Source: Hyphomonas sp. (GTDB lineage: Bacteria; Pseudomonadota; Alphaproteobacteria; Caulobacterales; Hyphomonadaceae). From it: DNA of 56,847 bases. Shown one piece after another: positions 53-34,040 of the stretch. The notes under the pieces were generated by a model. It ran no database searches. It saw only the letters and a program-made list of their open reading frames with translations, and was not told the origin of the DNA. Each line of letters begins with the position of its first letter. Within the stretch, counting starts at the first letter, position 1. The stretch covers positions 3,759 through 60,605 of the forward strand of contig PACZ01000049.1 in NCBI GenBank assembly GCA_002700305.1. Reading direction: 5' to 3'. The position numbers and the translations under genes were made by a program.

Positions 53-529
53 TCAGAAAAGCCGCGCCTTGCGCGTCAGCAGGAAAACCAATGGTGGCAG
101 GATGACCCATTGCAGGATCGGGGCAAGGCCTGTGGCCAGGGGACCGACCGTCGGCATGGCGTCCCGATAGGCCCAGCTGCCGCGCAGGCTGACATTCAGC
201 CACTCACTAAAAATGAGATAGGCAATCCCCAGAAGCGTCGCTGCCAGCGCAACGCGCCAGTAGTGCTGCGCGGGCCAGTGCCGCCCGCCGAAGGCAAGCC
301 GAGCCAGGGCAAGCGTTGCTGATCCGATCAGCCCGTCCCCGATCGTGCAATGAAGGATCGCGAAAGTCTTTTCGGCCAACGAGGCTTCGGTCCAGATTGT
401 ATAAAGCGGCAATTGCGCGATTTCCCAGACGAGATTGACGACAGTCAGGACGAGGACATAGGAGAGGGCAAATCGCAGTGGCCTGCGGGCCGGGTCGAGT
501 TCTGTGATTTTTTTCCTTATTTGCGTCAT
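53..529 (-). CDS. four-TM membrane protein of unknown function
   Basis: The product is about 158 residues with four hydrophobic segments, so it is an inner-membrane protein. Recognisable stretches are WEIAQLPLYT in the first segment, HCTIGDGLIG in the second, and EWLNV followed by SWAYRDAMP between the third and fourth. I do not recognise a characterised family. The start at 529 is chosen because GAGGGAGAC sits directly upstream; an in-frame upstream start lacks this. The gene is divergent from the CnrYXH-like cassette and shares its 200-bp upstream region, so it could be a target of that sigma factor. That is inference from position only. Confidence 0.75.
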   Translation of the reverse strand: MTQIRKKITELDPARRPLRFALSYVLVLTVVNLVWEIAQLPLYTIWTEASLAEKTFAILHCTIGDGLIGSATLALARLAFGGRHWPAQHYWRVALAATLLGIAYLIFSEWLNVSLRGSWAYRDAMPTVGPLATGLAPILQWVILPPLVFLLTRKARLF

Positions 530-729
530 GTCTCCCTCTCGCCAAGCGACGAAATTCCTGCAAACAGGCAATCTGGCGGTTCGGTACAGCCCGTGCAGTC
601 AGCTGATTGCAAGGACGCTTGTCGATGCATACCAATTATTAGCAGTAGATTCATGAGGGGGTGTTGAAACTGCCGCGTACAGGGCAATACGTAATCCTCC
701 CTAATCTTGCTATCTGAAAGGAGAGCGCC

Positions 730-1041
730 ATGAACAAGGATCTCGACGCCCTCATCGCGGGGATCAAGGCCCTGCCGGCCGATCGCGACCTCAGCCATAT
801 CGAGCCCGAAGTCTGGGCCCGGGTCGATGCACGGGCCACGGGAACACAAAGGGGAGGCCTTTTCGGCGTTGCAACCAATGGCCAGGTTTCCGCCATGCCT
901 GTGCTCTCCCGCAGCATTGCCGTTGCGCTTGCGGTCGGTCTCTTCGTCGGGGTGATCTCTGTTCCCAGAACTTCCGGACCGAACGAGCTTTCGGTGTTTT
1001 CGATTGAGGCGCCGTACGGGCCTTCCGGTTTATTGCGCTAG
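730..1041 (+). CDS. CnrY-like membrane anti-sigma factor
   Basis: A 103-residue protein with a cytoplasmic N-terminal half, one transmembrane helix at about residues 58-78 and a short periplasmic tail ending PYGPSGLLR. Size, topology and place as first gene of a three-gene set match CnrY/NccY, the membrane anti-sigma factors that hold the ECF sigma CnrH until the CnrX sensor binds metal. The N-terminal segment DLSHIEPEVWARVDAR is the likely sigma-binding part. A strong Shine-Dalgarno (AAGGAGAG) precedes the ATG. The next gene begins 8 bases after the stop. Primary-sequence similarity in this family is low, so the call rests largely on synteny. Confidence 0.7.
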   Translation: MNKDLDALIAGIKALPADRDLSHIEPEVWARVDARATGTQRGGLFGVATNGQVSAMPVLSRSIAVALAVGLFVGVISVPRTSGPNELSVFSIEAPYGPSGLLR

Positions 1042-1049
1042 GAAAGCTT

Positions 1050-1484
1050 ATGCGGCTTGAACACTGGATCATCGTTTCCTTTGTTGCGCTGTGCGCAGGC
1101 ATGACCGGCGTTTTTCTTGCCGGAAACTGGTCCCCGGCGCCGGAGGTCCAGCGGGCTTCCAGTTTACATGACCTGATCCACAAGGACCTCGAGCTCTCCG
1201 ACGCACAGGAGCAGCGCCTTGCAGTCATTGAACGCAAGTTCGCGGCGCGCAAGAAGGAGCTTGAAACAAGGTTGCGAGCGGCCAATCTCGCGCTCGCCGA
1301 CGCGATCGAGACCGACAAGGCGAATTCCCCCGCTGTCCAGGCGGCGATTGATGATTTTCACGAGGCCATGGGGGAGCTGCAGAAGCTTACCATCGAGCAT
1401 GTGTTCGAGATGCGCGAGATACTGGATGAGGAGCAGGCAAAGGCATTCGACAAGGAAATCGTTCGGGCACTGAAGGAGCAATAG
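1050..1484 (+). CDS. CnrX-like periplasmic heavy-metal sensor
   Basis: A 144-residue protein with an N-terminal signal anchor (residues 5-25) followed by an all-helical periplasmic domain of the ZraP/CnrX (Metal_resist) type. The five metal ligands known in Cupriavidus CnrX (H42, H46, E63, H119, M123) have counterparts at H40, H44, E61, H117 and M121, a constant offset of two, which strongly favours a true Ni/Co-type sensor fold. It is translated from AGGAAAG 5 bases before the ATG, between the anti-sigma and sigma genes. It probably senses divalent metal in the periplasm and relieves the anti-sigma. Which metal it senses here cannot be read from the sequence. Confidence 0.85.
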   Translation: MRLEHWIIVSFVALCAGMTGVFLAGNWSPAPEVQRASSLHDLIHKDLELSDAQEQRLAVIERKFAARKKELETRLRAANLALADAIETDKANSPAVQAAIDDFHEAMGELQKLTIEHVFEMREILDEEQAKAFDKEIVRALKEQ

Positions 1485-1494
1485 ACATAGTCGC

Positions 1495-2067
1495 GTGGCC
1501 CATAGTGAGCGAACAGACGCGGAACTTGCCATTGCGGCGGCGGGAGGCGAGGAGCGCGCCTTCACCGAGCTTATGCGCCGCTACAAGGAGCCGCTCTATC
1601 GCTACATTCACCGGTCCATGCGAGGGGATGAGGACGCGTATGACGTGCTCCAGGACGCATTCACGGCCGCCTGGCGGTCAATCGACCGCTATGATCCGTC
1701 ACGCAAGTTTTCGACATGGATCTATCATATCGCCCTCAACAAGGTGCGCGATCACGGAAGGAAACGTGCGGTAAGGAGTTTCTTCTTCCAGGCCGCGCCG
1801 CTCGACGTTCCGGACCGTCCGGATATCGCGGACCACGGGACGGACATCCCGGGCGATTTTGAAATTCACGATGAGCTGAGACGCGTGTCCGCCATGATCG
1901 ACGAATTGCCGGAGAAGCTGAGGGTGGCGTTCACTCTACAGGTCCTGCAGGACCTGCCGCAGATCGAGGTCGCAGATATTCTCGGCGTATCGGTCAAAAC
2001 CGTCGAGACGCGCGTCTACCGGGCAAGAAAAATCCTCCAGGCGCAGGTCGAGTCCGCCGATCAGTGA
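1495..2067 (+). CDS. ECF sigma factor, CnrH-like
   Basis: A 190-residue ECF sigma factor (CnrH is 191). Region 2 covers about residues 20-90 (FTELMRRYKEPLYRYIHR, then DAYDVLQDAFTAAWRSI and FSTWIYHIALNKVRDHGRK). Region 4 lies at about 120-185, with the helix-turn-helix IEVADILGVSVKTVETRVYRA. Translation appears to begin at a GTG 11 bases after the CnrX-like stop. With its two upstream partners it forms a complete membrane-to-RNA-polymerase metal signalling relay. Unlike cnr and ncc loci, no CBA-type efflux pump follows; the next gene is convergent and overlaps its 3' end by 7 bases. Confidence 0.9.
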   Translation: MAHSERTDAELAIAAAGGEERAFTELMRRYKEPLYRYIHRSMRGDEDAYDVLQDAFTAAWRSIDRYDPSRKFSTWIYHIALNKVRDHGRKRAVRSFFFQAAPLDVPDRPDIADHGTDIPGDFEIHDELRRVSAMIDELPEKLRVAFTLQVLQDLPQIEVADILGVSVKTVETRVYRARKILQAQVESADQ

Positions 2068-2963: not shown

Positions 2964-3100
2964 GGAACCCCTTGGTCGGTCAGGAAACATATTTGCAGTG
3001 CGCAAGGCTGTCTGCCTGAGGGGCGCACGCACATGCGACGTAATACGTTTCAGGAGCGCACATCCCCTTGCGTTCCCGAGGTTTGAAAAGGAGTTTACTC

Positions 3101-5442: not shown

Positions 5443-7509
5443 TCATGTGCCTGCCCGCTGCCGGTTCAGTTTGAGGAGCTGGGCATTGACGGCGCAGATT
5501 ACCGTGCTGGCGGACATGAACACGGCGCCGATTGCCGGGGTCAGGATCACGCCCCACGGGAAGAAAAGGCCTGCGGCTGCCGGAATGGCGAACGTATTGT
5601 ATCCGGTTGCCCAGGCGAGGTTCTGCATCATTTTCCTATAGGTCGCCCGTGCAAGTTCGATGATGGCGACGACGTCTGCAGGACTTGAACGCACGAGAAT
5701 GATGTCTGCCGTCTCGATGGCAACGTCTGTTCCGGCGCCGATTGCAATGCCGACATTTGCCTGAGCGAGGGCAGGGGCGTCGTTGACCCCATCACCCGTC
5801 ATGGCCACGATCAGGCCACGCGACTGAACTTCCCGGACCTTTGCGGCTTTTTCTTCCGGCAGGACTTCGGCAATGACTTCGTCCAGCCCGATCTCGCGGC
5901 CAACCCATTCAGCCACCTGCCGGTTGTCCCCTGTCAGCATGATACATCTGATGCCCATGTCCCGAAGGTGCCGGATGGCCTCGCGGGATTCTACGCGAAC
6001 GATATCGGCCAGCGCGATGGCCCCGGCGAGCCGGTCGTCAATCAGGACAAAGACGACGGTCTTTCCCTGCCGGCTCAGTTCCTCAAAGCGCGGGTCTTCC
6101 ATGCCGATGCCCTGGTCACGCAGGTAGCCGGGACTGACGACTTTTACCTCGTGTCCTTTCACTTCGCCGGAGGCCCCCTTGCCGGGGATCGCCCGGAATT
6201 TTTCGACCGGCCAGGCCTGTTTTGAGTCGCGGACAATCCCCTGGGCGATCGGGTGCTCGGAATGCGCCTCGATCGAAGCGGCATAGGCGACGATTTCTTC
6301 TTCGGAATGGGTGGTATCGAAGACGAGCGTATCTGTGATTCCGAACTCGCCCCGGGTCAGTGTGCCTGTCTTGTCGAATATGATGGCATCTATGTTGCGG
6401 GCCTCCTCGAACGCCGTCCGGTCACGGATGAGCAGCCCATTGCCTGCCGCGATGGCCGTCGAGCGCGCAACGACCAGCGGCACAGCAAGGCCGAGCGCGT
6501 GCGGACAGGCAATCACCATGACCGTGACAGCGCGGGCCATGGCGAACCCGAAACCCTGTCCGGTAAAAAATGTCCAGAACAGGAAGGTCGACAGGCCTCC
6601 GCCGAGTGCGATGAAGGTGAGCCATTTCGCTGCCGAGTTGGCGAGGTCCTGTGTCCGGGACTTGCTGGCCTGGGCTTCCTTGACGAGCTTGATCACGCTC
6701 GACAGGAATGTCTCGTCTCCGGTCTTGTCGACCCGGATGGTCAGCGAGCCTTCTCCATTGATGGACCCGCCAATCACCCGGTCATCAATGCTCTTGGGTA
6801 CAGGCTTCGATTCGCCCGTCAGCATGGATTCGTTCAGCGAAGAGTCGCCATGAACGATGATGCCGTCCGCCGGAACCTTTTCGCCCGGCTTGATCAGCAG
6901 CTGCTCGCCGCCGCGCAGTGTCGACACGGACACGTCCCTGACAGAGCCGTCGTCGGCGAGGAGGTGGGCTTCATCCGGCATGAGGCTGGCGAGCTTCTCG
7001 AGCGCGCGCCCGGCACCGAGAACCGATTTCATTTCGATCCAGTGCCCCAGCAGCATGACAGCGATCAGCGTGGCAAGTTCCCAGAAAAAGGTCTCGTCAC
7101 TGCCGATCGCGACCATGCCGACTGAATAGGCATAAGCGGTGGTGATCGCGACCGAAATCAGGGTCATCATTCCGATCCCGCGCCCGGTTATTTCCTGCCA
7201 GAATCCTTTCAGGAAGGGCCAGCCGCCGATGAAGAAGACAAGGCTTGAGAGCGCGGCGAGAAGGATCCGGTCACCGGAAAAGCGCAAACTGTCCTGAAGA
7301 CCGAGCCAGGTCTGTATCATCGGAGCCAGAGCCAGTATCGGCACGGTCAGGATCAGGACGATCCAGAACCTGCGGCGGTAATCAGCGATCATACCCTCGT
7401 GATTGTGACCCTCATGGGCATGCCCTGCGCCATTGTGAGCGTGATGGCTGTGAGGATTAACCGTTTCGGGAGAGGCGGCTGCCTGATGCGTGTGGGTCGA
7501 GTGGTCCAT
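5443..7509 (-). CDS. copB: copper-translocating P-type ATPase, CPH (CopB) subclass
   Basis: About 688 residues from the chosen start. A His-rich N-terminus (about residues 1-38, no CxxC HMA domain) precedes the P1B ATPase core. Visible motifs are TGES in the actuator domain (about 230), CPH in the ion-channel helix (about 334), the phosphorylation site DKTGT (about 378), HP (about 418) and GDGVND (about 571). Late helices carry NLAWATGYN and [15 protein letters not shown] with an N-terminal His-rich stretch is the CopB-type pattern, exporting Cu from the cytoplasm. The frame stays open upstream to 7857, overlapping the sigma gene, but family alignment and the His-rich start favour 7509; no clear ribosome site settles this. 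Confidence 0.92.
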
Positions 7510-7774
7510 GATTCTGACTATTTTTCCGTAATGGGACAGGGTCGGCAGGCGCGGGTTGCAATCCTGCATCCTGGCTTGGTGCGTGTGGACATTTCTGGAC
7601 CAATGATCATGGTCTTCCTTCGCTGCATGCGCTTTGTTTCCCCGCGCAGGGCGGTTGCCGGATTGCTTTTCAGAAATACGTGCCGGCGATGCTGACCCCT
7701 CAAAAGCTGATTGCCCGGACTTGTGGGCGGTTGCCAGCACCGGGAGGCGCATGATCGGTCCAGGCGCCGAGGCC

Positions 7775-8359
7775 CTACCTGTGCACCTTGCTGCCGGATC
7801 CCTGACAGGCGCACTGGAAGTATCCGTGTTCGAGGCAGGTATGGCAGGTCTGTTCAAGGCGTTCGCGCATAGCCCGGCGGGCCCGGTGCAGCTTCACCCG
7901 AAGGGCGGCTTCGCTGAGGCCGAGGTCTTCAGCGATGGCGGATCTTTCTTCTCCGATGAGATCTGCCCGCCAGATGAGGTCTGCATAGCCGGGACTGAGC
8001 GTCGGAAGCATCTTGTAGAGACAGGCACAGATCACGAAGTCCAGTTCCTCTTCGCCGAAGAGAAGCTCCGCATTGGCAGCATAGCTGGCCAGCAAATCGC
8101 TGGTACGTTTCCTGTCACGGAAATGGTCCGCGATTGTCGAGCGCAGAACCTGAGAGAGCCAGCCGCGCAAGCGGTCTTCATCCTTCAGGTCGGAAAAGCG
8201 CGTCAGGGCTTTCACATAGAAGTCCTGCAACACGTCCCTGGCATCTGCGTCATTGCCGATCTTCCGTTTCAGGAAGCGGTAAAGGTCCTGATGCGACTCG
8301 GTCAGAGCGGCTTCAACGGCCCGCCTGCGCTGCCTTGATGGCGCCTTGTCAGATGTCAT
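7775..8359 (-). CDS. ECF sigma factor with Cys-rich C-terminal tail (CorE-like?)
   Basis: A 194-residue ECF sigma. Region 2 includes DARDVLQDFYVKALTRFSDL and LRGWLSQVLRSTIADHFRDRKR; region 4 includes RSAIAEDLGLSEAALRVKLHRARRAM. After region 4 it carries a short Cys/His tail with C172, C175, H178, C183 and C185, plus an internal CAC before region 4. Myxococcus CorE-type sigmas sense copper directly through a C-terminal Cys-rich domain, and no anti-sigma gene is adjacent here. Direct copper sensing is thus plausible, supported by the copper ATPase lying downstream on the same strand (265-bp gap). The start at 8359 follows AAGGAACCAAGGG. Confidence 0.85.
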   Translation of the reverse strand: MTSDKAPSRQRRRAVEAALTESHQDLYRFLKRKIGNDADARDVLQDFYVKALTRFSDLKDEDRLRGWLSQVLRSTIADHFRDRKRTSDLLASYAANAELLFGEEELDFVICACLYKMLPTLSPGYADLIWRADLIGEERSAIAEDLGLSEAALRVKLHRARRAMRERLEQTCHTCLEHGYFQCACQGSGSKVHR

Positions 8360-8455
8360 CCCTTGGTTCCTTTCGCGGGATCGGCGGGCAGTCTGCATAT
8401 TCATACGCATCCGGCCGGCATGCCCCTTATCGGGCGTCCGTGGCGCCCGCCCGAC

Positions 8456-8481
8456 TGTAACGGTTGAGGGAGCGGGGCGTC
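8456..8481 (+). promoter_or_regulatory. predicted ECF sigma promoter of cfa-ppk2
   Basis: TGTAAC (8456-8461) and CGTC (8478-8481) are separated by exactly 16 bases, the textbook architecture of many ECF sigma promoters (AAC -35 core, CGT -10 core). It points toward the Cfa gene, whose start lies 65 bases downstream. The Cys-tailed ECF gene begins just upstream on the other strand, so that sigma is the natural candidate to use this promoter. This is inference; no comparable element was found before the sigma gene itself. Confidence 0.6.
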
Positions 8482-8545
8482 TTCTCCGTATCAGTCAATA
8501 AGTTCCGCCTGGCGACCGGCAGGTGGACTCCAACGGAGATCTGGC

Positions 8546-9817
8546 ATGGCACTCATAGGCGCGATCGCAAGAAACAGGCTGGAACGGGCGATCCGCAAGG
8601 GATGCCTCGAGGTCAGGTTTCCGGATGGAAAAACAGCGAGATACGGATCCTATCGCGTCCGACCGGTCCGGATCGCTATCGCCTCGAATGCCTGGCTTCG
8701 GCGGATCCTTCTGGATCCGGAACTGCAGGTCGGCGAGGCTTACATGGCAGGCGGCCTGACCATTGAATTCGGCGACCTTTACGACCTGCTGGATCTCTTC
8801 TGGGTGAACTTCCTGGCAGACGGACTTCCGGCAGCACGGTTGCCGGCGCTGTTCAGGAAGAGCGCCCGATTGATTGCGCAATTCAATCCGCAAGAGCGAT
8901 CCGCGCGCAATGTAGCTCATCACTATGACATCGGGAATGATCTCTATCGCCTCTTCCTGGATGAGGACATGCAATATTCCTGCGCCTATTTCCCGGATGC
9001 TGAGGTCACGCTGGAGCAGGCCCAGGAACTCAAGAAAGAACATATCGCCCGCAAGCTTTGCCTCAGACCTGGCGACCGGGTGCTGGACATCGGTTGCGGC
9101 TGGGGCGGCCTGGCCCTGCATCTTTGCCGGTCGGAGGACGTTCGCGTGGAAGGCGTGACGCTTTCCTGCGAGCAATACGAGTTAGCTCGCAAGCGTGCAG
9201 CGGATCAAGGGCTCGGCGACCAGGCCACGTTCCGGATCGAGGATTACCGGTCTCTTACGGATGAGTATGACAGGATCGTCTCGGTGGGAATGTTCGAGCA
9301 TGTCGGAGTGCCCCACTATCAGGAATATTTCAGACAGATTGCAGCGCGCCTGAGCCCGGACGGGGTTGCCCTTGTCCATACGATCGGCCGAGCGGGCAGG
9401 CCGGGTGCAACCAATCCCTGGATCGCAAGGCACATCTTTCCGGGCGGTTACATTCCGGCCCTGTCGGAGATCCTGCCGGCAATCGAGCAAGCGGGTCTGA
9501 CGGTGCTCGACATCGAAGTCCTCCGCCTTCACTATGCCGAAACGCTGAAAGCCTGGCGGGCGCGCTTTCTGGCGCGCGCTGCTGAGGCCGAAGCCTTGCA
9601 CGATGCGCGCTTTGTACGGATGTGGGAATTCTACCTGGTATGCAGCGAGCTTTCATTCCGGCACGGTGTCCACAATGTGTTTCAGCTCCAGCTCGGCAAG
9701 CGACAGGAGTCGGTTCCGCTGACGCGGGATTACCTGTATCAGCCAGATCCGATACCTGTTTCAAAGCGAACGAAATCCTGCCTGAATGAGGAAAGGCGCC
9801 ACCAGAATGTCCGATGA
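8546..9817 (+). CDS. cfa: cyclopropane-fatty-acyl-phospholipid synthase family
   Basis: A 423-residue SAM-dependent methyltransferase that transfers a methylene group to unsaturated phospholipid acyl chains at the membrane. An N-terminal lipid-binding region (residues 1-110) is followed by the CFA signature AHHYDIGNDLYRLFLDEDMQYSCAYF, the SAM motif VLDIGCGWGGLALHL and the later VSVGMFEHVG and HTIGR stretches. GGAG lies 6 bases before the ATG. The 3' end overlaps ppk2 by 11 bases, so they form an operon behind the ECF-type promoter. Cyclopropanation hardens membranes against oxidative, acid and metal stress. Confidence 0.93.
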   Translation: MALIGAIARNRLERAIRKGCLEVRFPDGKTARYGSYRVRPVRIAIASNAWLRRILLDPELQVGEAYMAGGLTIEFGDLYDLLDLFWVNFLADGLPAARLPALFRKSARLIAQFNPQERSARNVAHHYDIGNDLYRLFLDEDMQYSCAYFPDAEVTLEQAQELKKEHIARKLCLRPGDRVLDIGCGWGGLALHLCRSEDVRVEGVTLSCEQYELARKRAADQGLGDQATFRIEDYRSLTDEYDRIVSVGMFEHVGVPHYQEYFRQIAARLSPDGVALVHTIGRAGRPGATNPWIARHIFPGGYIPALSEILPAIEQAGLTVLDIEVLRLHYAETLKAWRARFLARAAEAEALHDARFVRMWEFYLVCSELSFRHGVHNVFQLQLGKRQESVPLTRDYLYQPDPIPVSKRTKSCLNEERRHQNVR

Positions 9818-10589
9818 CGAACAGGACGCCAGGGGCGTGTCAAAAAAAGCCTACAAGCATGATCTCCGGGCGTTGCAAGTAGAGCTGGTCAAGATCCAGA
9901 GGCGGGCGATCCGGCACGGGCATCGTATCCTCATTCTTTTCGAAGGGCGCGATGCAGCCGGCAAGGATGGCGTCATCAAGCGGATTTCAGAGCATCTCAG
10001 CCCGCGGGATACGCGGGTTGTTGCCCTTGGCAAGCCCTCCGACCGGGACACGAGGAGCTGGTATTTCCAACGCTATGTGCCGCATCTGCCGGCCGATGGA
10101 GAGATCGCCTTGTTCAACCGCTCCTGGTACAACAGAGCGGGTGTGGAACGCGTGATGAAATTCGCGCGGAAGGCCGAGGTGGCTGCGTTTCTGGAGACGG
10201 TCGGCGCGTTCGAGCAGATGCTCGTCCATGACGGGATGCAAATCCTCAAATACTATCTCGACATAAGCCGGACCGAGCAGGAGACCCGGCTGGAAGACCG
10301 CGACCGGGACCCGCTCAAACAATGGAAGAAGAGTCCGATCGACGCGGTGGCCCTGCAAAAATGGGATGAATATACGAACGCGCGCGACGAGATGTTCCTG
10401 AAGACGGATTTCGAGCATGCGCCATGGTATGTGGTCCGTACAGATGACAAGCGTGCAGCAAGGCTGAACGTCCTCGGACATATTATCCGGTCCATCGACT
10501 GTCCGGAGACGGACAAGACAGTCGCTGCGGTCGACCCGGCCGTCGTGATCGATAATCCGGGACAGAGGCTCGACCGGCTGGCCCGGTAG
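9807..10589 (+). CDS. ppk2: polyphosphate kinase 2 (PPK2) family
   Basis: About 260 residues with the PPK2 fold. The Walker A is GRDAAGKDGVIKR, the Walker B/lid region contains FNRSWYNRAGVERVM, and the terminal PWYVVRTDDKRAARLN stretch is typical. These enzymes move phosphate between polyphosphate and nucleotides. A single PPK2 domain of this length suggests class I or III, which use polyphosphate to phosphorylate (d)NDP or NMP; the class cannot be fixed by eye. The start at 9807 is 10 bases after AGGAAAGG and overlaps cfa by 11 bases. Polyphosphate also chelates metal, which would fit the neighbourhood. Confidence 0.92.
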   Translation: MSDDEQDARGVSKKAYKHDLRALQVELVKIQRRAIRHGHRILILFEGRDAAGKDGVIKRISEHLSPRDTRVVALGKPSDRDTRSWYFQRYVPHLPADGEIALFNRSWYNRAGVERVMKFARKAEVAAFLETVGAFEQMLVHDGMQILKYYLDISRTEQETRLEDRDRDPLKQWKKSPIDAVALQKWDEYTNARDEMFLKTDFEHAPWYVVRTDDKRAARLNVLGHIIRSIDCPETDKTVAAVDPAVVIDNPGQRLDRLAR

Positions 10590-10916: not shown

Positions 10917-11248
10917 CTGTTCCCTCATTGCTCGATGACCCTTTCGGCAAGGCCAGGCCTGGTCGCCCCGGTACGTGCCAGGTCAACAGACGGGAATGAT
11001 GCCGAGACGTTACACGCCTGCATGAAATTCACCGGCTTGGAGTTTCTATTGAGGGCGCGCGCGGTCAGGGCCGTATCAGCAGGCAACGCCAGACATTCAC
11101 CTGGAAGCCGGGGGTGTGCATGGAAAACACAGCCAGCCTGCCATCCTCGCATGTTCCGATTGAGGCGGTTGCGCGCCCGGGTCCGGGAACACACAGGCGG
11201 CAGTTTCATGCTGCAGGAACCTCATCCCTGTTTCGGCAAGGAGGACGC
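10917..11248. other. intergenic region, no gene seen
   Basis: This 330-bp stretch lies between the divergent small membrane protein and the AlbA_2 leader. A frame open on the plus strand (10935-11252) has an Arg-rich, low-complexity translation and no ribosome site, so I do not call it. It should contain the promoters of both flanking genes. I see no convincing -35/-10 or terminator. Confidence 0.4.
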
Positions 11249-11281
11249 ATGAACCGCTATCACTCAAGGACGAGAGGATGA
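11249..11281 (+). CDS. 10-codon leader ORF coupled to the AlbA_2 gene
   Basis: A mini-ORF (MNRYHSRTRG) preceded by a near-perfect Shine-Dalgarno, AAGGAGGA, 4 bases before its ATG. Its TGA overlaps the ATG of the next gene as ATGA. The downstream gene has only GAGAGG touching its own ATG, with no spacing, so it probably depends on ribosomes that finish this leader. The arrangement resembles translational coupling or a small control peptide. No attenuator hairpin is obvious. Confidence 0.5.
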   Translation: MNRYHSRTRG

Positions 11282-12075
11282 GCCAGAAAGCCCGGCAAAT
11301 CCGTCACCTGGTGATCTATGCCGCCCTTGGCGGGATCATCGGTGTTCTGGTCCTGCATCCGGTAAACTCGCTCGTGGTCTGGATGGAGTATGCTTCCCTG
11401 TTTTCAGGCAGGTATTCCGGGTTCGGCCAGTTCGCCTGGGAACGTGTCAGCGGCGCGCCCTTGCTCCACCTCATGGCCATGAATGTCATTTTTGCTGCCC
11501 TGGGCGCAATTATGGGGCTCGTATTTTCGGTGCTGACCCTTGCGCTTTCACGGCAGGCGCGCACGACCGAAGCTTTGCTGGAAGACCTTCAGATGGCTCT
11601 GCCCGGTGTGATTGCCGGAGGCGAGAACGAACGGACGGAATTCAAGTCGACCTTGCGCTGGGATATCCGGGAATCGCGAACGAACAGAAGCCTCGAGCAG
11701 GTGATCGCCAAAACCATTGCGGGCTTCATGAATCATGAAGGCGGACGTTTGCTCATAGGTGTTGCGGATGACGGCGAACTTCTCGGGATTGATCCGGATC
11801 TGAATACACTTCGGAACCCTACGGCGGATGAATTCGAACGTGCCCTGATCGGGATCGTCAGGACCTATCTCGGCAGCGCTGTCTGTCCACTCGTGCGCAG
11901 CAGGTTTCTGACGATCGACGGAAAGACGATCTGCTGGGTTCTGGTTGAGCGTTCGGACACGCCGGTCTTCCTGCTTCTGTCGGATACATCGAAATATTTC
12001 GTCCGTCTGGGTAATTCAACGCGGGAGCTCAATGCAGCCGAGGCGCACGATCACATTTTACGGCGCAGACATTAA
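11278..12075 (+). CDS. membrane-anchored AlbA_2 (Schlafen-type) domain protein
   Basis: 265 residues. Two transmembrane helices (about 10-32 and 62-90) are followed by an AlbA_2 domain at about 115-260. The domain shows ENERTEFKSTLRWD, IAGFMNHEGGRLLIGVADDGELLGI and a late SKYFVRLGNSTREL. AlbA_2 is a nucleic-acid-binding, Schlafen-like fold that also occurs in bacterial regulators and defence proteins. Here it is tethered to the inner membrane with the domain in the cytoplasm, which is less usual. Expression appears coupled to the upstream 10-codon leader. Its target is unknown. Confidence 0.8.
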   Translation: MSQKARQIRHLVIYAALGGIIGVLVLHPVNSLVVWMEYASLFSGRYSGFGQFAWERVSGAPLLHLMAMNVIFAALGAIMGLVFSVLTLALSRQARTTEALLEDLQMALPGVIAGGENERTEFKSTLRWDIRESRTNRSLEQVIAKTIAGFMNHEGGRLLIGVADDGELLGIDPDLNTLRNPTADEFERALIGIVRTYLGSAVCPLVRSRFLTIDGKTICWVLVERSDTPVFLLLSDTSKYFVRLGNSTRELNAAEAHDHILRRRH

Positions 12076-17119: not shown

Positions 17120-18172
17120 TCAGTGTGCATGGCTTTCATCCAGGGGGCTGGAAGACCAATGGATATGCGTGATTTTCCAACCGTCCTCATTCCGCATGAG
17201 AACCATGGTTTCCATGGACCGGAGGTGGACGGCCTCACCCTTGTATGTACCGTTCATCTCCGATTGCGAAATGACGGTCGCCATGTCGCCTGCCTGGAAG
17301 ACTTTCCGGTCCTGTAGCTGAACATTCATCATGGTCATGAAGGACATGTCGGATTTCATGTGATGGCCGGCATATTCCTCGAAGGACAGCTCGGCCTGTC
17401 CGCCCTCCGCGATGACCGCGTCCGGTGCCATCATGGCGCGTAAGCCATCTTCATCACCTGACCGCAAGGCGGCCGAGAAGGCATCGGCCACGAATTCGGG
17501 CGTGCCGGTCTGGGCTGCCCCGGACACCCTCCCGGCATCTGCCTCATGATTGCTGCCGGGACCGTCCATGCGGCCGCCTTCCGCCATCTCGTCATGGTGC
17601 CCGTCGTCCATCTCGTCATCGGAGTGCTCATGGCCTGGCGCAGACGCCATTTCATCATGCCCGGCAGCGATGGCCGCCTCATCTGTCTTGCCACCATGAT
17701 GATGATCGTGACCTTGGCCTGTGACCTCGGGCAGACTCCTCACGCCAAGTCCATATCCGTAAACGATCTTCCCGCCCCACCAGGCTGTCGCGGTCAGCGC
17801 GAGGGCGGCGGCAGAAAGTGCGCCGACAAACAGGACCGACGCAGATTTTGCGCGGGTTCGCCAGCGCCATACCGCAAGGAGCAGAATGGCCGATCCCGAC
17901 GGCACCGCCCAGTTGCGGTGTGTCGTCATGGCAATGTGCGACGGCTCATCATGATCGACCGAATAATAGGCCTGGAAGCCCGCGGCGATGGTCACCACGA
18001 TCGAAGCGGCCGCAAAAGCCAGCAACCAGTCTGCCGCGGGCCGCAAGGATTGGGTCCAGCGGCCGGAAGGGAACACGCGACACAGGAGGTAGGATGCGGC
18101 GGCCGTCATGCTGAGGGCGTAGGCAAAATGGACCAGGATGGGGTGAATATTCGGTTCTATGAGGCCGTCCAA
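17120..18172 (-). CDS. DUF2231 membrane domain fused to an NTF2-like domain
   Basis: About 350 residues. The first 150 form four transmembrane helices of DUF2231 type (HPILVHFAYALS at the start, HRNWAVPSGSAILLLAVWRWR later). A His/Asp/Met-rich linker (HDHHHGG, then repeated HDEM units) follows at about 155-215. The C-terminal 120 residues resemble a SnoaL/DUF4440 NTF2-like fold (VADAFSAALRSGDEDGLRAMMAPDAVIAEGG, ending WKITHIHWSS). The TTG at 18172 is preferred because AGGAG precedes it; an upstream ATG at 18232 gives a non-membrane extension. The linker probably binds metal. The fusion is uncommon to my knowledge. Confidence 0.75.
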   Translation of the reverse strand: MDGLIEPNIHPILVHFAYALSMTAAASYLLCRVFPSGRWTQSLRPAADWLLAFAAASIVVTIAAGFQAYYSVDHDEPSHIAMTTHRNWAVPSGSAILLLAVWRWRTRAKSASVLFVGALSAAALALTATAWWGGKIVYGYGLGVRSLPEVTGQGHDHHHGGKTDEAAIAAGHDEMASAPGHEHSDDEMDDGHHDEMAEGGRMDGPGSNHEADAGRVSGAAQTGTPEFVADAFSAALRSGDEDGLRAMMAPDAVIAEGGQAELSFEEYAGHHMKSDMSFMTMMNVQLQDRKVFQAGDMATVISQSEMNGTYKGEAVHLRSMETMVLMRNEDGWKITHIHWSSSPLDESHAH

Positions 18173-18282
18173 GAAGGGCTCCTGTCTTGTTGCCGGGTCG
18201 TCAGGGCATTCGGCATGCGGCCGGCAACCCATTCATTCTGGCAGGTGATACGCGCCGGATGCACATGTCCCTCGAAACCGGC

Positions 18283-18528: not shown

Positions 18529-19338
18529 TCAGAACCAAGTGCGGATACCGCCCACCACGACCACCTGGTCCGGGTCTCCGCCAGCTACTCTGGTATAGTC
18601 TCGGGAACCGCCAAATTCAGATTGCCACTCGACGCCTACATAAGGCGCCAGTTCCCGGACGAATTCATATCGTAACCTCAGGCCTGCATCGATCGAATTC
18701 AGGCCCGAGCCGGTCTCGCGTTCGGCAATGTCCTGCGCGGAGAAGTTCGCCTCGATGCGGGGCTGCAGAATCAGACGCTGCGTCAGCAGAAACTCGTATT
18801 CTGCTTCGAAGCGGGCTGTCAGGTCACCTTTTTCACTGAGAAAAGCCGAGGCATCGATCTCGAACCAGTAGGGTGCCAATCCTTGGAGCGCCAGTACGCC
18901 ATGGGTCAGGCCATGGGGTTCGAAATCATGCCGCACGCCGGCTTGAAGGTTCCAATAGGGAGAGATTGCGCGGGAATACAGCGCCTGGAGCTCGGCGTCT
19001 TCGGTACCGTCGCCATTCAGGGAAGTACGTCCCTCGGACTTTATCCAGAGCTTGTTGATATCATCGCCCCAACTGGCCTGGCCGTTCCAGTACAGGGATT
19101 CCGATTCGTCAGAAAACTGCGCTTCGAGCTGGTTGAACAGAACATAAAAGGAATTCTGTGCGCCGCCTCCGGCCTGAACCGCCCTGCGGGCATCAGCCAT
19201 TGTTTCCTTTCCGAAATAGGCGTCGGCCTGTGACCAGGGCTTTTCAGAAGAAGACGGCGGCTGATCATCATGTGCTTGCGCTGATGCGCTTGTCGTAACG
19301 GCGATTGCGGCGAGCGCTGCGAACATCACCTTGCGCAT
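18529..19338 (-). CDS. copB: copper resistance outer-membrane protein CopB/PcoB
   Basis: About 269 residues. A signal peptide (through SASAQA) is followed by a CopB/PcoB beta-barrel: NSFYVLFNQLEAQ, YWNGQASWGDDINKLWIKSEGRT, LQAGVRHDF, LQPRIEANFSAQD and a closing aromatic F after IRTW. It is the outer-membrane partner of CopA oxidase. The Met-rich N-terminal repeats of longer CopB proteins are missing, so copper binding may rest with CopA. The ATG used here overlaps the CopA stop by one base (TGATG) with GAGGAG upstream; a GTG one codon earlier is also possible. Not to be confused with the ATPase at 5443. Confidence 0.92.
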   Translation of the reverse strand: MRKVMFAALAAIAVTTSASAQAHDDQPPSSSEKPWSQADAYFGKETMADARRAVQAGGGAQNSFYVLFNQLEAQFSDESESLYWNGQASWGDDINKLWIKSEGRTSLNGDGTEDAELQALYSRAISPYWNLQAGVRHDFEPHGLTHGVLALQGLAPYWFEIDASAFLSEKGDLTARFEAEYEFLLTQRLILQPRIEANFSAQDIAERETGSGLNSIDAGLRLRYEFVRELAPYVGVEWQSEFGGSRDYTRVAGGDPDQVVVVGGIRTWF

Positions 19339-21293
19339 CACTTCATCTCCTCAGGCTTGTCATGGCCCATGGCGGAGTGGTCCATCATATCGTGATCCAT
19401 CGGCATTTCGTGCTGCATAGGCATGTCATGCCCCATCATGTCATGGTCCATTGGCATCTTGTCCGTGGACGGCAGGACGGATACGACCTGCATCATGCCG
19501 GCATGCATGTGGTAGAGCAGGTGGCAGTGAAAGGCCCAGTCGCCGACATGTTCTGCCGAAACGTCAACGCTCAGCTTTTCTGCGGGTTTGACGACCACGG
19601 TATGCTTGCGCGGCTTATGATCTCCTCCTCCGTTGACGAGGTCGAAGAACATCCCATGGAGATGGATCGGGTGTGGCATCATTGTATCGTTGATGAGGGT
19701 CAATCGGACACGTTCGCCTTCGCGAAACCGGATGGACTGCGTGACTTCTGAAAACTTCACGCCGTCGAATGACCACATATAGCGTTCCATATTGGAGGTG
19801 AGGTGTATGACGACTTCTCTCTGCGGTGATCGGGAGTCGGGATTCGGCTCGAGGCTGCGAAGCTGAGAATAGGTCAGTGTACGGTGCGGCTGATCGGATA
19901 ATCCAATGCCCGGCTCATCAAGCCGGCTTGAGGGCATGGCCGCAATGTTTGCAACGCCAGGTCCCTTTTTGAGAGGCGCTTCAACACTCGCCAGTTGCGT
20001 TGGAGGGCCGTGCGGATCCGGGCCCATACCCGTACGTGGCATATCCCCATGTGTCATGTGATCCATGCTCGACATACCAGACATGTCGGACATGGTGGGC
20101 CTGTTTTCCATATCGCTCATGCCGGCCATGCTCTTATGGCTCATGCCCATGTCCTTCATCGTCAGTGATGGGACAGGCCGCAGGTCTGGAATCGCCGCAC
20201 GCAGGCCGGGTCGAGGGCCGAGGGTGGCGACGGCTTGACCAGAACGGTCAATTGACTCGGCGACGAAGGCGTAGGTCTGATCATCTTCAGGAGCAACGAT
20301 AACATCATAAGTCTCTGCGACGCCCATCTGGAACTCGTCCGTCTCGATTGGCTGAATATTCAGACCGTCGGATTGCACAACGGTCATTGGAAGACCCGGA
20401 ATGCGCACATTGAAGAGCGACATGGCTGATGCATTGATAATCCGCAGTCTGACGCGCTCGCCGGGCTGGAACACCATATTGAAATTCTCAGCGGTGGAAT
20501 GACCGTTTATGAGATAGGTGTAGGTCGGTGCCCCAACGTCTGCGAGATCGCGCGGGGACATGCGCATTTTGCCCCACATGGCGCGGTCTTCCAGTGTGTC
20601 ACTGAGCCCGTTATTGGCGGCATCCCTCAAAAAGTCGGGAAGGGTCCTGCGCTGGAAGTTCAGGCTTTCGGCATTATTCTTGAGCTTTGCATAAATCCGG
20701 TGCGGGTCTGTGAAGGACCAGTCACTGAGCACCAGAACGTATTCCCGGTCGTAGGCGATGGGATCCCTCTCTGACGGTTCGATGATGATCGGGCCATAAT
20801 GCCCTAGTTGTTCCTGCAGGCCGGAATGGGAATGATACCAGTACGTGCCATTCTGTCGGACCGGAAACTGGTAGCGGAATGTCTTGCCAGGTTTTATGCC
20901 TGGAAACGTAACACCCGGTACACCATCCATCTGGAACGGGACAAGCAGGCCGTGCCAATGAACAGACGTGTCTTCCTGAAGCTTGTTGGTGACATTCAAC
21001 GTCACCGTCTCGCCTTCGCGAAAGCGAAGCAGCGGACCCGGCAGCTGTCCATTGATGCCGACGGCCTTTCCGGTCTTACCGTTGATGCGTACCGGAAACT
21101 CTGCAATCTCCAGATCGAAGGCGGTACCTGAGGCCGAAGTAATTCCCAGGTTTCCGTCACTGGAGGAGCGGGCCCAGGCTGGAAGCATACCAGCTACCCC
21201 GAGAGCAGCGCCTGCTCCCAGCGTGTAGTGCAGCAGATGTCGTCTTGAAAGCATATCGGTATCCAACAATTCGTGTTGGCTACTGTTACGCAT
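19338..21293 (-). CDS. copA: multicopper oxidase CopA/PcoA
   Basis: 651 residues. A twin-arginine signal (SRRHLLHYTLGAGAALG) exports the folded enzyme. Copper sites are HWHGLL (112-117), YWYHSHSG (151-158), HPIHLHG (541-547) and HCHLLYHMH (about 589-597). A Met-rich insert at about residues 380-425 and a Met/His-rich tail over the last 40 residues add copper-binding capacity. It oxidises Cu(I) in the periplasm. The signal could also start at a Met at residue 14 (21254). It is followed by CopB with one-base overlap and preceded 27 bases upstream by the CusF-like lipoprotein. Confidence 0.95.
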   Translation of the reverse strand: MRNSSQHELLDTDMLSRRHLLHYTLGAGAALGVAGMLPAWARSSSDGNLGITSASGTAFDLEIAEFPVRINGKTGKAVGINGQLPGPLLRFREGETVTLNVTNKLQEDTSVHWHGLLVPFQMDGVPGVTFPGIKPGKTFRYQFPVRQNGTYWYHSHSGLQEQLGHYGPIIIEPSERDPIAYDREYVLVLSDWSFTDPHRIYAKLKNNAESLNFQRRTLPDFLRDAANNGLSDTLEDRAMWGKMRMSPRDLADVGAPTYTYLINGHSTAENFNMVFQPGERVRLRIINASAMSLFNVRIPGLPMTVVQSDGLNIQPIETDEFQMGVAETYDVIVAPEDDQTYAFVAESIDRSGQAVATLGPRPGLRAAIPDLRPVPSLTMKDMGMSHKSMAGMSDMENRPTMSDMSGMSSMDHMTHGDMPRTGMGPDPHGPPTQLASVEAPLKKGPGVANIAAMPSSRLDEPGIGLSDQPHRTLTYSQLRSLEPNPDSRSPQREVVIHLTSNMERYMWSFDGVKFSEVTQSIRFREGERVRLTLINDTMMPHPIHLHGMFFDLVNGGGDHKPRKHTVVVKPAEKLSVDVSAEHVGDWAFHCHLLYHMHAGMMQVVSVLPSTDKMPMDHDMMGHDMPMQHEMPMDHDMMDHSAMGHDKPEEMK

Positions 21294-21320
21294 TCGCGCA
21301 GCAAGACCCTCAGGTCTGAC

Positions 21321-21746
21321 TCAGTTCGGCTCATTGCCGGAGGACTCTTCGTCGTCGGGGACCAGTGCCTCGATTACTTCGCGAGCGCTGACGCGCCTTA
21401 TGGCAACAATCTCGGGAACATCTTCATTCGAGTAATCGAAAATGAACTCGACCGGGTCGCCAGGTGCAAATCCGCTGACATCGACATGGTGCGCGACGGA
21501 AAAGTTCATCTGCATGATCGGCCAGCCGGTTTCGTTGACCGGAGTGTGAGTGATCTCGATGGTTCGGTTTGCGGAATCCAGCGAAAGGATCGACCCAAAG
21601 GCTGGTGCGACCCTCGGGCCGAGCGCGGCTCCGAGTGCATCCGGATCTGCGATCTCTTCCTGTGAAACGGGTGAGGCTGGCGCACAGGACACAAGACCCA
21701 GAGGAGCAAGTGCCAGTGATCCGGCGAAAACTGCATATCTGATCAT
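21321..21746 (-). CDS. CusF-like copper-binding lipoprotein
   Basis: About 141 residues. A lipoprotein signal ends LGLVSC with the lipidated Cys at 21. The C-terminal 90 residues resemble a CusF-type OB fold (GSILSLDSANRTIEITHTPVNETGWPIMQMNFSV, then FAPGDPVEFIFDY). The family ligands His, two Met and Trp are represented by H, W, M and M in that stretch. AAGGGGGAAG precedes the ATG, so a longer frame to 21878 is rejected. It is the first gene of the copper block. A perfect 10-bp palindrome GGTCCGGACC (21785-21794) lies 39 bases upstream and may be an operator. Confidence 0.85.
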   Translation of the reverse strand: MIRYAVFAGSLALAPLGLVSCAPASPVSQEEIADPDALGAALGPRVAPAFGSILSLDSANRTIEITHTPVNETGWPIMQMNFSVAHHVDVSGFAPGDPVEFIFDYSNEDVPEIVAIRRVSAREVIEALVPDDEESSGNEPN

Positions 21747-22214
21747 ACGGACTTCCCCCTTTGCTTCATCCGGCAATCCTGATCGGTCCGGACCAGAGTG
21801 CGATTGAGCTGAGTTCAATACGCACCGCATCCTTCTCTCCCTCATAGCGTCAATCGCCGGGGATTTCCACTTGAGCATTGGCTGGGGCCGGAGAAGCCGG
21901 AAAAGGAGCTATTGGCGTGCCGCTGCCCGGCATGTGCGTTTGCTTCTCTGAGTTTCCCACCATTTGCCATCGATAGAACTACTTTTCTAGCTGGAACAGG
22001 AAAGGGTTCCGTGGCCAAAGGGCTACTGTCTTGTATGCCATTGAAATAATGGAGGAACAGTTGGAGCGGGTGAGGGGAATCGGATCCTCGTCGCTAGCTC
22101 GGCAATTGTGCAGAGGCAATAGACTGGTTGGGGGACTCCATTCTTATTGCGCCAGGCAATCGTAAGAAATCCCCGCTCACCCGCGCGCGACCCCTGTTGC
22201 AGGATTAAGTATTA
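21747..22214. other. intergenic region: copper promoter area and island boundary
   Basis: This 468-bp stretch separates the copper block from the glycosylation block, both on the minus strand. It holds the palindrome GGTCCGGACC (21785-21794) upstream of the CusF-like gene and the degenerate tRNA-Gly attachment-type repeat (21981-22105). No open frame with a credible start is present, and no terminator was recognised after the transferase gene. Confidence 0.5.
21981..22105 (-). repeat. degenerate copy of tRNA-Gly 3' end and flank (att-like)
   Basis: 22062-22105 matches the 3' half of the tRNA-Gly gene at 43190-43263: the terminal stretch TGGAGCGGGTGA is identical, followed by GGGAATCG, CCTCGTCG and further matches with scattered changes. 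The similarity continues beyond the tRNA end. CATTGAA (22039) corresponds to 43167, and ACTTTTCTAGCTGG (21981-21994) is identical to 43098-43111. The 5' half of a tRNA is absent. A 3' tRNA fragment in the same orientation, 21 kb away from the intact gene, is the usual footprint of tRNA-targeted integration. Confidence 0.7.
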
Positions 22215-32412: not shown

Positions 32413-33021
32413 CTATTCTAGGTCTGCATTCACCAGCTCGCGAGCCGCTGGGACATCAACAGGCGTCAGCATGGCATCAAGAAAGTATGCGACGAACTCG
32501 GAGCGATTTGGCAGGCGTGATTTTTCGTAAATTGAACTTGCCTGTTGGCGAACAGTTGCGCTCGACGATCCTCGAAGGCGGGCGATTTCCTTGTGCGAAA
32601 ACCCCTTTAACATCAGCAATGCGACGTCGCTTTCCGCGTCAGACAGGTTCCACTGGGATAGTTGCGAGACAATGGTGTGGTTTGGATCTTTGGCCACTGA
32701 CTGCATTTCCCGACGTGCGGTTCCTTGAACTGCAGCTGCCTGCGAGACCCTGTCAGAGAGTCTTCTGTGTTGTTTGCGGAGTGACTGTGTTTCGGACGCG
32801 ATCACCGCCATAGTCACCATGGCGCCTGCTATAAGACCGTTTTCCAGCAGCTCCGTTCCCATATCCAGCGGTGTGAGCGGCTCGGGCGAAGTCAGCATTT
32901 CCACGACGGTCAGAGACAAAAAGGCCGCAGCACCAATAAGGACAACAAGCGTTATGGGACGGAAAGGGGACCACCCTATCGTAGTTTTAGGAAATGAATC
33001 CGATCGGTGTGCCGGGTTCAT
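32413..33021 (-). CDS. membrane-tethered LuxR-type HTH regulator 1
   Basis: About 202 residues. Two transmembrane helices (about 20-42 and 55-75) are followed by a coiled-coil-like stretch (SETQSLRKQHRRLSDRV) and a GerE/LuxR HTH at about 130-195 (LSDAESDVALLMLKGFSHKEIARLRGSSSATVRQQASSIYEKS). It has no receiver or autoinducer domain. DNA binding at the membrane face is implied. GAGGAGAG precedes the ATG; a longer frame to 33303 is not supported. It is a clear paralogue of the next gene upstream. Confidence 0.85.
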   Translation of the reverse strand: MNPAHRSDSFPKTTIGWSPFRPITLVVLIGAAAFLSLTVVEMLTSPEPLTPLDMGTELLENGLIAGAMVTMAVIASETQSLRKQHRRLSDRVSQAAAVQGTARREMQSVAKDPNHTIVSQLSQWNLSDAESDVALLMLKGFSHKEIARLRGSSSATVRQQASSIYEKSRLPNRSEFVAYFLDAMLTPVDVPAARELVNADLE

Positions 33022-33452
33022 TGTTTGCTCTCCTCGGAAGGCTTTCTGGTTCAGCTTCCAGCGGCGCCATGCTGTCGTGAAACCGGTTTCAGCATGAGGG
33101 ACTGGAGAAGAACCGCATCGTTGATCCTTCAAATCGAAGAAGCATTGGCTGTGCTCTTTCCGCAACATACTTATCTGTATAGTGTTCGAAAATGGCCGGC
33201 AGGAAAGGTCAGGCCATCGATCCGAGAAGGTTATCGGCGCTTGAGGCACTTGGTCTGGTCGACAAGTTTCTACGAAAGACCTGATCACTGCCGGGTGAGA
33301 CAAATGGCATGAAATTCGGATACTGGCGCGAATTGCTCTTGCTGCGCTCGCTCAGTAGTGCGCCTGAGGCGTCAGTTCGGGTGACAGGCCGGCAGCGACC
33401 ATCAAATGGTTGATCGCGATTCCCCAGCAGACGATTTCGGGCTCGACAATTG
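33022..33452. other. intergenic region between the two LuxR-type genes
   Basis: These 431 bases carry the upstream region of regulator 1, including the TAC-N6-GTA motif at 33168-33179. Near the upstream gene's stop codon lie a hairpin GCCGCT/AGCGGC without T-run and the palindrome GACAATTGTC (33445-33454). An open frame runs through part of it in continuation of regulator 1, but its translation is not conserved with regulator 2. I see no other gene. Confidence 0.45.
33161..33180 (-). promoter_or_regulatory. shared TAC-N6-GTA motif upstream of regulator 1
   Basis: Read on the minus strand the element is TACAGATAAGTATGTTGC, 147 bases before the start of the first membrane LuxR gene. The same pattern, TACAnAnnnGTATnnTGC, recurs before the second LuxR gene and before the PepSY-led efflux operon. 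The central TAC-N6-GTA dyad is of the kind bound by LuxR/NarL-type or OmpR-type dimers. Confidence 0.45.
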
Positions 33453-34040
33453 TCACGGCCGCTGCGAAGGAGCGGCGGGTTGCAGGATTAGAGCGTCAAG
33501 GAAATAGGCCACAAATTCCGACCGATTCGGACAACCGGATTTGTGATAGACCGCGCTGGCTTGTTGTCGCACTGTCGCATCTGACGAAGAGCGCAGGCGT
33601 CCGATTTCTTTGTGCGAAAAGCCCTTGAGCATTAGCCGGGCAACTTCCTGTTCGGCGTCTGAAAGGCCCCAGTCCGCAAACTGTCGTTCGATGGCGCGAT
33701 TGAGATCACCTACAGTACTCTCAGCGATGGCTCGCCAATGTCCGCTTTCGGACTCGACACTCGACAGTCTGCTTGTCAGAAGCCTGTGCTCGCGGCGCAG
33801 CAATCTCGTCTCGGACGCTATAAAAGCCATCAGGACCATGGTTCCGGCCAGGAGCGCATTCTCCAGAAGCTCAAGTCCGATGTCGATGTACGACAAGTGC
33901 TCATCGGCGCTGATGAACTCCACAACCGTCAAAAACATGAAGAGCAGCGCGCCGAGCGACACGAGCAGCGTAAACGGACTCAACGAGATCCGTGAGTGAT
34001 CGGATTTGTCTGCTGTGTTTCGCTCAGGACTCACATTCAT
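33453..34040 (-). CDS. membrane-tethered LuxR-type HTH regulator 2
   Basis: 195 residues, same plan as regulator 1: two transmembrane helices (about 22-43 and 55-76), a charged helical linker, and a LuxR HTH (LSDAEQEVARLMLKGFSHKEIGRLRSSSDATVRQQASAVYHKSG). The HTH blocks are nearly superimposable (LMLKGFSHKEI, ATVRQQAS, PNRSEFVAYFLDA), while the membrane parts differ more, which points to an old tandem duplication followed by sensor divergence. The ribosome site is weak. It lies downstream of PAP2 in the same direction. Confidence 0.85.
   Translation of the reverse strand: MNVSPERNTADKSDHSRISLSPFTLLVSLGALLFMFLTVVEFISADEHLSYIDIGLELLENALLAGTMVLMAFIASETRLLRREHRLLTSRLSSVESESGHWRAIAESTVGDLNRAIERQFADWGLSDAEQEVARLMLKGFSHKEIGRLRSSSDATVRQQASAVYHKSGCPNRSEFVAYFLDALILQPAAPSQRP

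Follow-up and report, generated by a model that had tools for sequence, protein, structure and literature searches.

In the 56,847-nt stretch of Hyphomonas DNA analysed here (the window), the sigma factor of a CnrYXH-type cassette likely directs a scattered copper-resistance regulon through the predicted promoter TGAGGG-N16-CGTA, and not an adjacent efflux pump, as judged from sequence comparison. The window is a copper island with copA, copB, a CusF-like gene, a copper P-type ATPase gene, DUF2933 and DUF411 genes and a gene for a Met-rich protein; the predicted targets within it span about 21 kb (Table 1).

The cassette comprises three genes that share one strand, are separated by gaps of 8–10 nt and, as the initial annotation had read them, follow cnrY, cnrX and cnrH in order and length. 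The product of the second gene is a membrane-anchored protein of the CnrX fold that matches Pfam Metal_resist (E = 5.9e-17). Against PDB sequences its best hit is CnrX (1.9e-21), ahead of NccX (2e-19), with Spy at 0.03. A fold search with its AlphaFold model (mean pLDDT 77.6) again places CnrX first, and at E ≤ 0.001 it yields 15 PDB matches, each of them to CnrX or NccX, so the structural likeness on which the initial annotation had staked its reading is borne out. The five ligand residues align without gaps to H, H, E, H and M of CnrX at identical spacing, again in agreement with the earlier reading. The third gene encodes a sigma factor whose best match among solved structures is CnrH (3.6e-27). 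The 103-aa protein encoded by the first gene, the candidate for a CnrY-type class II anti-sigma, matches no family model above its curated cut-off; its one hydrophobic stretch starts near residue 58, and its C-terminal tail is similar to the CnrY tail. Together, the three genes form a CnrY-X-H-type cassette.

Table 1. Genes and predicted promoters in the window (positions within the window)
Feature	Position	Strand	Basis or remark
4-TM copper-island protein	53..529	-	role as a target unsupported for this clade
Predicted sigma promoter of the cassette (autoregulation)	654..679	+	exact in 10/11 close cassettes; L041 one mismatch (TAAGGG)
CnrY-type anti-sigma candidate, 103 aa, one TM	730..1041	+	position, length, TM and C-terminal tail only
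CnrX-type periplasmic metal sensor, 144 aa; H40, H44, E61, H117, M121	1050..1484	+	Pfam, PDB sequence, alignment, AlphaFold fold match
CnrH-type ECF sigma factor, 190 aa	1495..2067	+	Pfam, best PDB match
Predicted sigma promoter before Met-rich gene	3017..3042	+	exact in 10/11 close relatives, not L044
Met-rich secreted protein, 21 Met and 9 His in 146 aa	3101..3541	+	predicted target
Copper P-type ATPase, CPH motif, His-rich N-terminus	5443..7569	-	predicted target; start 7569 or 7509
Predicted sigma promoter before copper P-type ATPase	7677..7702	-	exact site
CorE-like ECF sigma, Cys-rich C-terminus	7775..8359	-	predicted target; Pfam sigma2 and sigma4, cysteine spacing
Predicted sigma promoter before CorE-like sigma	8404..8429	-	one mismatch (TAAGGG-N16-CGTA)
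Predicted sigma promoter before cyclopropane synthase/PPK2	8465..8490	+	exact site
Cyclopropane fatty acid synthase and PPK2 polyphosphate kinase genes	8546..10589	+	predicted targets
Predicted sigma promoter before membrane/AlbA_2 gene	11050..11075	+	exact site
Membrane/AlbA_2 protein gene	11278..12075		site 202 nt upstream
Possible sigma promoter before DUF2231/SnoaL gene (17120-18232)	18249..18274	-	one mismatch (CGAGGG-N16-CGTA)
copA multicopper oxidase (19338-21254) and copB (18529-19341)	18529..21254	-	predicted targets
Predicted sigma promoter 32 nt before copA	21287..21312	-	exact site
CusF-like periplasmic copper-binding protein	21321..21746	-	predicted target; CusF_Ec 4.8e-17
Predicted sigma promoter 72 nt before CusF-like gene	21819..21844	-	exact site

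Sensors 97% identical to that of the window occur at three loci, among them those of H. jannaschiana VP2 and Hyphomonas sp. CY54-11-8. Of 33 related sensors that were aligned from genome loci, 26 keep all five ligands (the exceptions being L043, L054, L056, L057, L063, L065 and L066). In three other Hyphomonas genomes (L054, L056 and L057 in G040, G035 and G023, respectively), Y and I replace the ligands H117 and M121, and exact promoter sites precede a gene resembling those of outer-membrane factors and lie near one resembling those of TonB receptors, both named by reading the sequence; these cassettes possibly serve another metal. The genome of the window itself encodes a second Metal_resist protein, which lacks the ligand motif and adjoins another ECF sigma and an EF-hand-like protein (L004, G000:C52:4893-7180).

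The two promoter boxes were first spotted by eye in the upstream regions of close-relative cassettes and tested afterwards on sites outside this discovery set, six of the seven exact matches in the window being new. Shuffled versions of the window contain 0.06 matches on average and two at most, and none of 100 reaches seven. When the spacer is varied from 5 to 30, all seven sites appear at 16, with single ones at 15 and 30. One-mismatch sites of the window number three, two of them listed in Table 1 and the third at 30338. In the whole 3.5-Mb genome there are ten exact sites, eight of them on the 60.6-kb contig (P = 3e-13 under random placement). The reversed pattern has five matches in the same genome, so that clustering and gene identity carry the case and not the total. 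Behind the ten sites lie the cassette, the genes for the Met-rich protein, the copper ATPase, the cyclopropane synthase with PPK2, the membrane/AlbA_2 protein and the CusF-like protein, copA-copB, a gene with a porin-like product (C8) and a phosphoketolase gene slightly beyond the window (C1:3687, named from sister copies). No ORF start follows the tenth site (C37), which is probably a chance match. That an ORF start follows the other nine says little, since the nine sites of G013, a Hyphomonas genome without a detected cassette, also precede ORF starts.

Upstream of the cassettes of close relatives, a conserved CAATACGTA-like block lies closer to the gene than the boxes do. The sequence TGAAAC at 664 was considered as a −35 box and rejected, being absent from sister upstream regions.

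Promoters of the same class stand before cnr genes. On pMOL28, cnrY is preceded by CAAGGG-N17-CGTA (read by eye and two mismatches away from the TGAGGG pattern) and cnrC by CGAGGG-N17-CGTA, with CGTA ending 32–33 nt before the gene. According to passages of PMC9045368, the mapped starts of cnrY and cnrC lie 23–24 nt before the genes; CGTA thus ends 9 nt before these starts, where a −10 box belongs. Given this position relative to CnrH-dependent starts, TGAGGG-N16-CGTA looks like a CnrH-type promoter. Between CnrH and the Hyphomonas sigma, the recognition code looks to have been kept while the targets changed.

What are these targets? Besides the copper genes of Table 1, with DUF2933 and methyltransferase genes coming after the copper P-type ATPase gene, genes of lipid and energy metabolism recur at the sites: the cyclopropane synthase gene here, the phosphoketolase gene, and cyclopropane synthase genes with one-mismatch sites in sister species (L155-L157). 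Sites in relatives also precede genes for enoyl-ACP-reductase-like and acyltransferase-like proteins, both named by reading the sequence. This recurrence suggests that membrane protection may be part of the programme. Before the copper ATPase gene of these sister species (L155-L157), no sequence comes within one mismatch of the promoter.

A CBA pump is missing directly downstream of the cassette, as the initial annotation had seen; an EamA gene on the opposite strand comes next. The window does encode a tripartite RND system at 34971-40374, which was rejected as the missing pump: it has its own two-component genes, no sigma site is near, there being none within one mismatch beyond 30338 in the window, and its pump reaches the cut-off of none of the 11 listed NCBIfam models, the best-scoring of which are multidrug types. 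The system is part of a single run with a PAP2 phosphatase gene and a two-component regulator (34264-42429), and at 32413-34040 two adjacent genes encode paralogous membrane proteins with LuxR-like C-termini, as seen by eye.

Across genomes, the sites go with the cassette. Relatives of the sensor occur in 27 of 101 related genomes, the genome of the window included. With p values uncorrected for kinship throughout, Hyphomonas genomes hold a mean of 8.9 sites with the cassette (n = 13) and 3.0 without (n = 28; p = 9e-6), all 101 genomes 7.0 (27 with) and 2.3 (74 without; p = 3e-8), and genomes outside Hyphomonas 5.3 (14 with) and 1.9 (46 without; p = 7e-4). For the reversed pattern, the two Hyphomonas groups do not differ (2.5 and 2.5). 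Four cassette-bearing genomes (G059, G061, G063 and G081) have just 0–2 sites. Among the cassette-negative ones, G002 (16 sites) has an anti-sigma start with its promoter at a contig end, G015 (eight sites) has, together on one short contig, the gene for the 4-TM protein (Table 1) and a site that equals the phosphoketolase promoter site of L046, and G013 has nine scattered sites (L158-L166) and neither a detected cassette nor that 4-TM gene; all three were kept in the negative group for the tests of site counts.

Among 32 stretches, each at most 20 kb long, that surround the other sensors, 19 hold relatives of both copA and copB; in the remaining 13, copA or copB are absent, partial or outside the stretch, as they are 17 kb away in the window itself. 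The same cassette, promoter and cop genes recur on alphaproteobacterial plasmids. Twelve plasmid loci (216 kb) contain 20 sites at spacer 16 and three at 17, with none at any other spacer from 12 to 21. In the 11 annotated loci, nine of which have copA, an exact site lies within 200 nt upstream of copA in eight of nine cases, and a site within one mismatch in three of five cases for copC. Over the same distance, the anti-sigma gene has an exact site in five of 11 loci and one within one mismatch in nine, and the P-type ATPase genes an exact site, at spacer 17, in one of seven. Random 200-nt pieces of 13 scanned loci reach one mismatch or better in 24 of 1000 draws.

These observations can be assembled into a mechanism. 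Excess periplasmic metal, likely copper, would bind the five-ligand site of the sensor; the metal-bound sensor would alter the membrane anti-sigma and thereby free the CnrH-type sigma; and RNA polymerase carrying this sigma would transcribe the cassette itself as well as the copper operons. We infer copper as the signal from the targets alone, the ligands being the set of a nickel/cobalt sensor. For the same reason, the sensor might be thought to read nickel or cobalt as CnrX does, with the sigma turning on copper genes as a general metal response. The identity of the five ligands fits this view, given that CnrX signals with Ni and Co (passages of PMC7689651). However, the named targets are of copper type here and in the annotated alphaproteobacterial plasmids (copA in nine of 11), no nickel or cobalt gene was seen among the predicted targets, and CnrX is itself able to bind copper, a property known here from the title of PDB entry 3epv only. 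We therefore regard a nickel- or cobalt-reading sensor as unlikely and copper as the better candidate.

One of the predicted targets is itself a regulator. The CorE-like ECF sigma gene (start ATG at 8359) encodes C111-x-C113 in the linker and C172-x2-C175-x7-C183-x-C185 at the end of the protein, the latter four cysteines being spaced exactly as the invariant cysteines 181, 184, 192 and 194 of CorE (passages of PMC3107203). At the place of CorE Cys189, which the same source gives as the main activation residue, present in 11 of 21 members and not invariant, it has Tyr. No linked anti-sigma gene lies beside it; it is flanked by the genes for the P-type ATPase and the cyclopropane synthase. Among the close CorE-like copies (at least 74% identity), nine of nine have TGAGGG- or TAAGGG-N16-CGTA at a distance of 40–44 nt upstream of the start or of the position aligned with it, the match being exact in four; upstream of the four distant copies (46% or less), nothing within one mismatch is seen. 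From the sites before the close copies a cascade is inferred, in which the CnrH-type sigma would also transcribe the CorE-like sigma gene and so feed the periplasmic signal to a second, cytoplasmic sigma of copper type. As a side observation that takes in L153 and L155-L157 besides the window, the cyclopropane synthase-PPK2 pair adjoins the CorE-like gene here and in sisters, and a CorE-like gene on a Paracoccus plasmid is likewise located beside a cyclopropane synthase gene. Plasmid records with relatives of the CorE-like sigma number 360, Salmonella, Sinorhizobium and Escherichia contributing many of them, and just 100 cover 80% of the sigma.

The presence of this second sigma in the same island, copper-type by its cysteines, also raises the idea that the boxes belong to another regulator, be it the CorE-like sigma or a copper-responsive DNA-binding protein, and that the cassette is just one of the targets. 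Yet at E ≤ 1e-15 the CorE-like gene has relatives in 12 of the 101 genomes, as against 27 that have the cassette, and all 12 have a cassette, 11 being positive by search and that of G002 being cut by the contig end. Sites are also found in cassette genomes that lack a CorE-like gene. Moreover, the boxes match CnrH promoters with mapped starts, keep a fixed spacer and track the cassette, and ownership by another regulator is most improbable. With the cassette sigma as the owner of the boxes, the fuller proposal is that of a two-tier copper ECF cascade, in which a periplasmic CnrX-type sensor reads copper with the nickel/cobalt ligand set and a CnrH-type sigma drives a dispersed regulon of copper, lipid and polyphosphate genes together with a CorE-like sigma that senses copper in the cytoplasm; we judge this evenly balanced between right and wrong. 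If true, it would mean that two unrelated metal-sigma mechanisms are wired in series, and the module with its promoter would be an undescribed copper control system, widespread in Alphaproteobacteria and often plasmid-borne.

The initial annotation had instead singled out the divergent 4-TM protein encoded at 53-529 as the only close candidate target and as a possible new output for this signalling family. A CnrYXH-type module with a new output in place of the pump is indeed supported. As for the 4-TM gene, the best site upstream of it in the window has two mismatches and is no better than chance, and exact or one-mismatch sites precede many other genes of the window, eight or more in all, which speaks against its standing as the only close candidate. 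All 11 genomes that carry a close cassette have the gene, although it contains two in-frame stop codons in G045. The divergent 4-TM gene is followed by copA-copB in five close relatives (L041-L045), and in four of the 11 (L041, L042, L043 and L045) an exact promoter facing the other way precedes this 4-TM-copA-copB run; there, by virtue of that promoter and its place at the head of the run, the gene would belong to the copper programme. As an output of this cassette it is not supported in this clade, and we consider a role as the sole output barely plausible.

The 4-TM protein is likely a copper-island protein of an unnamed family. It has 344 relatives, and no Pfam domain is found in any of the 120 listed; W35-E36, H60-C61, G64-D65, S108-E109-W110, M125-P126 and Q140-W141 are invariant in 40 aligned members. 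The model of the protein reaches a pLDDT of 91, and a fold search with it returns no PDB match at E ≤ 0.001; the alignments used for the structure models took in 20 of 27 proteins in one set and 39 of the 120 listed 4-TM relatives in the other. At four loci (L119, L121, L122 and L128) the gene lies beside copA, DUF411/DUF2933 or P-type ATPase genes. Such copper-type neighbours are in the minority at the class-wide loci among L117-L138, and ten of 17 short class-wide loci have none of the queried genes.

Finally, that the sensor is a Spy/CpxP-like envelope-stress protein whose sigma runs an envelope repair programme is scarcely credible, for although LTXXQ and Spy-family matches of the sensor and the lipid genes among the sites would fit, CnrX is matched far better than Spy and all five metal ligands are kept.

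While the parts, namely CnrYXH, CopAB, CusF and CorE, are already known, no description of CnrYXH-type control of copper genes was found in the titles, abstract beginnings and passages of the open literature searched, a search that was not exhaustive. For CnrX, a periplasmic nickel/cobalt sensor that has been studied in depth, the choice of metal is discussed in terms of its ligands, methionine above all (passages of PMC7689651). In many Alphaproteobacteria the same five ligands stand above copper genes, so that sensor swaps would test directly what sets metal choice in this family. In addition, the promoter code allows the regulon to be predicted from sequence, and the link to the CorE-like sigma would join two separate copper-signalling mechanisms.

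Several known systems resemble parts of the one proposed here. SigAb of Acinetobacter baumannii is also a copper-responsive ECF sigma, and its anti-sigma has been modelled like CnrY; in contrast to the Hyphomonas cassette, its direct regulon is small (itself, relA and an sRNA), metal genes are affected indirectly, and the passages drawn on mention no CnrX-type sensor (PMC12153292). SigF-NrsF of Caulobacter crescentus, a member of the same order, likewise places an ECF sigma in the copper response, but with NrsF as the anti-sigma and with MrsPQ-like, DUF692 and DoxX genes as targets (passages of PMC8224329). With CorE of Myxococcus xanthus (ECF44/ECF238), the second sigma of the window shares the four invariant CRD cysteines at the same spacing and the linker CxC; it differs in having no counterpart of Cys189 and in being predicted to stand under a CnrH-type sigma. 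The closest likeness is to cnrYXH-CBAT on pMOL28 of Cupriavidus metallidurans, and to ncc, in gene order, sensor fold and ligands, sigma type, autoregulation and promoter class. There, the cassette runs nickel/cobalt efflux through a CBA pump, whereas the predicted targets in Hyphomonas are dispersed copper genes, reached through a promoter with a spacer of 16 and TGAGGG instead of the spacer of 17 with CAAGGG or CGAGGG of the pMOL28 cnr promoters.
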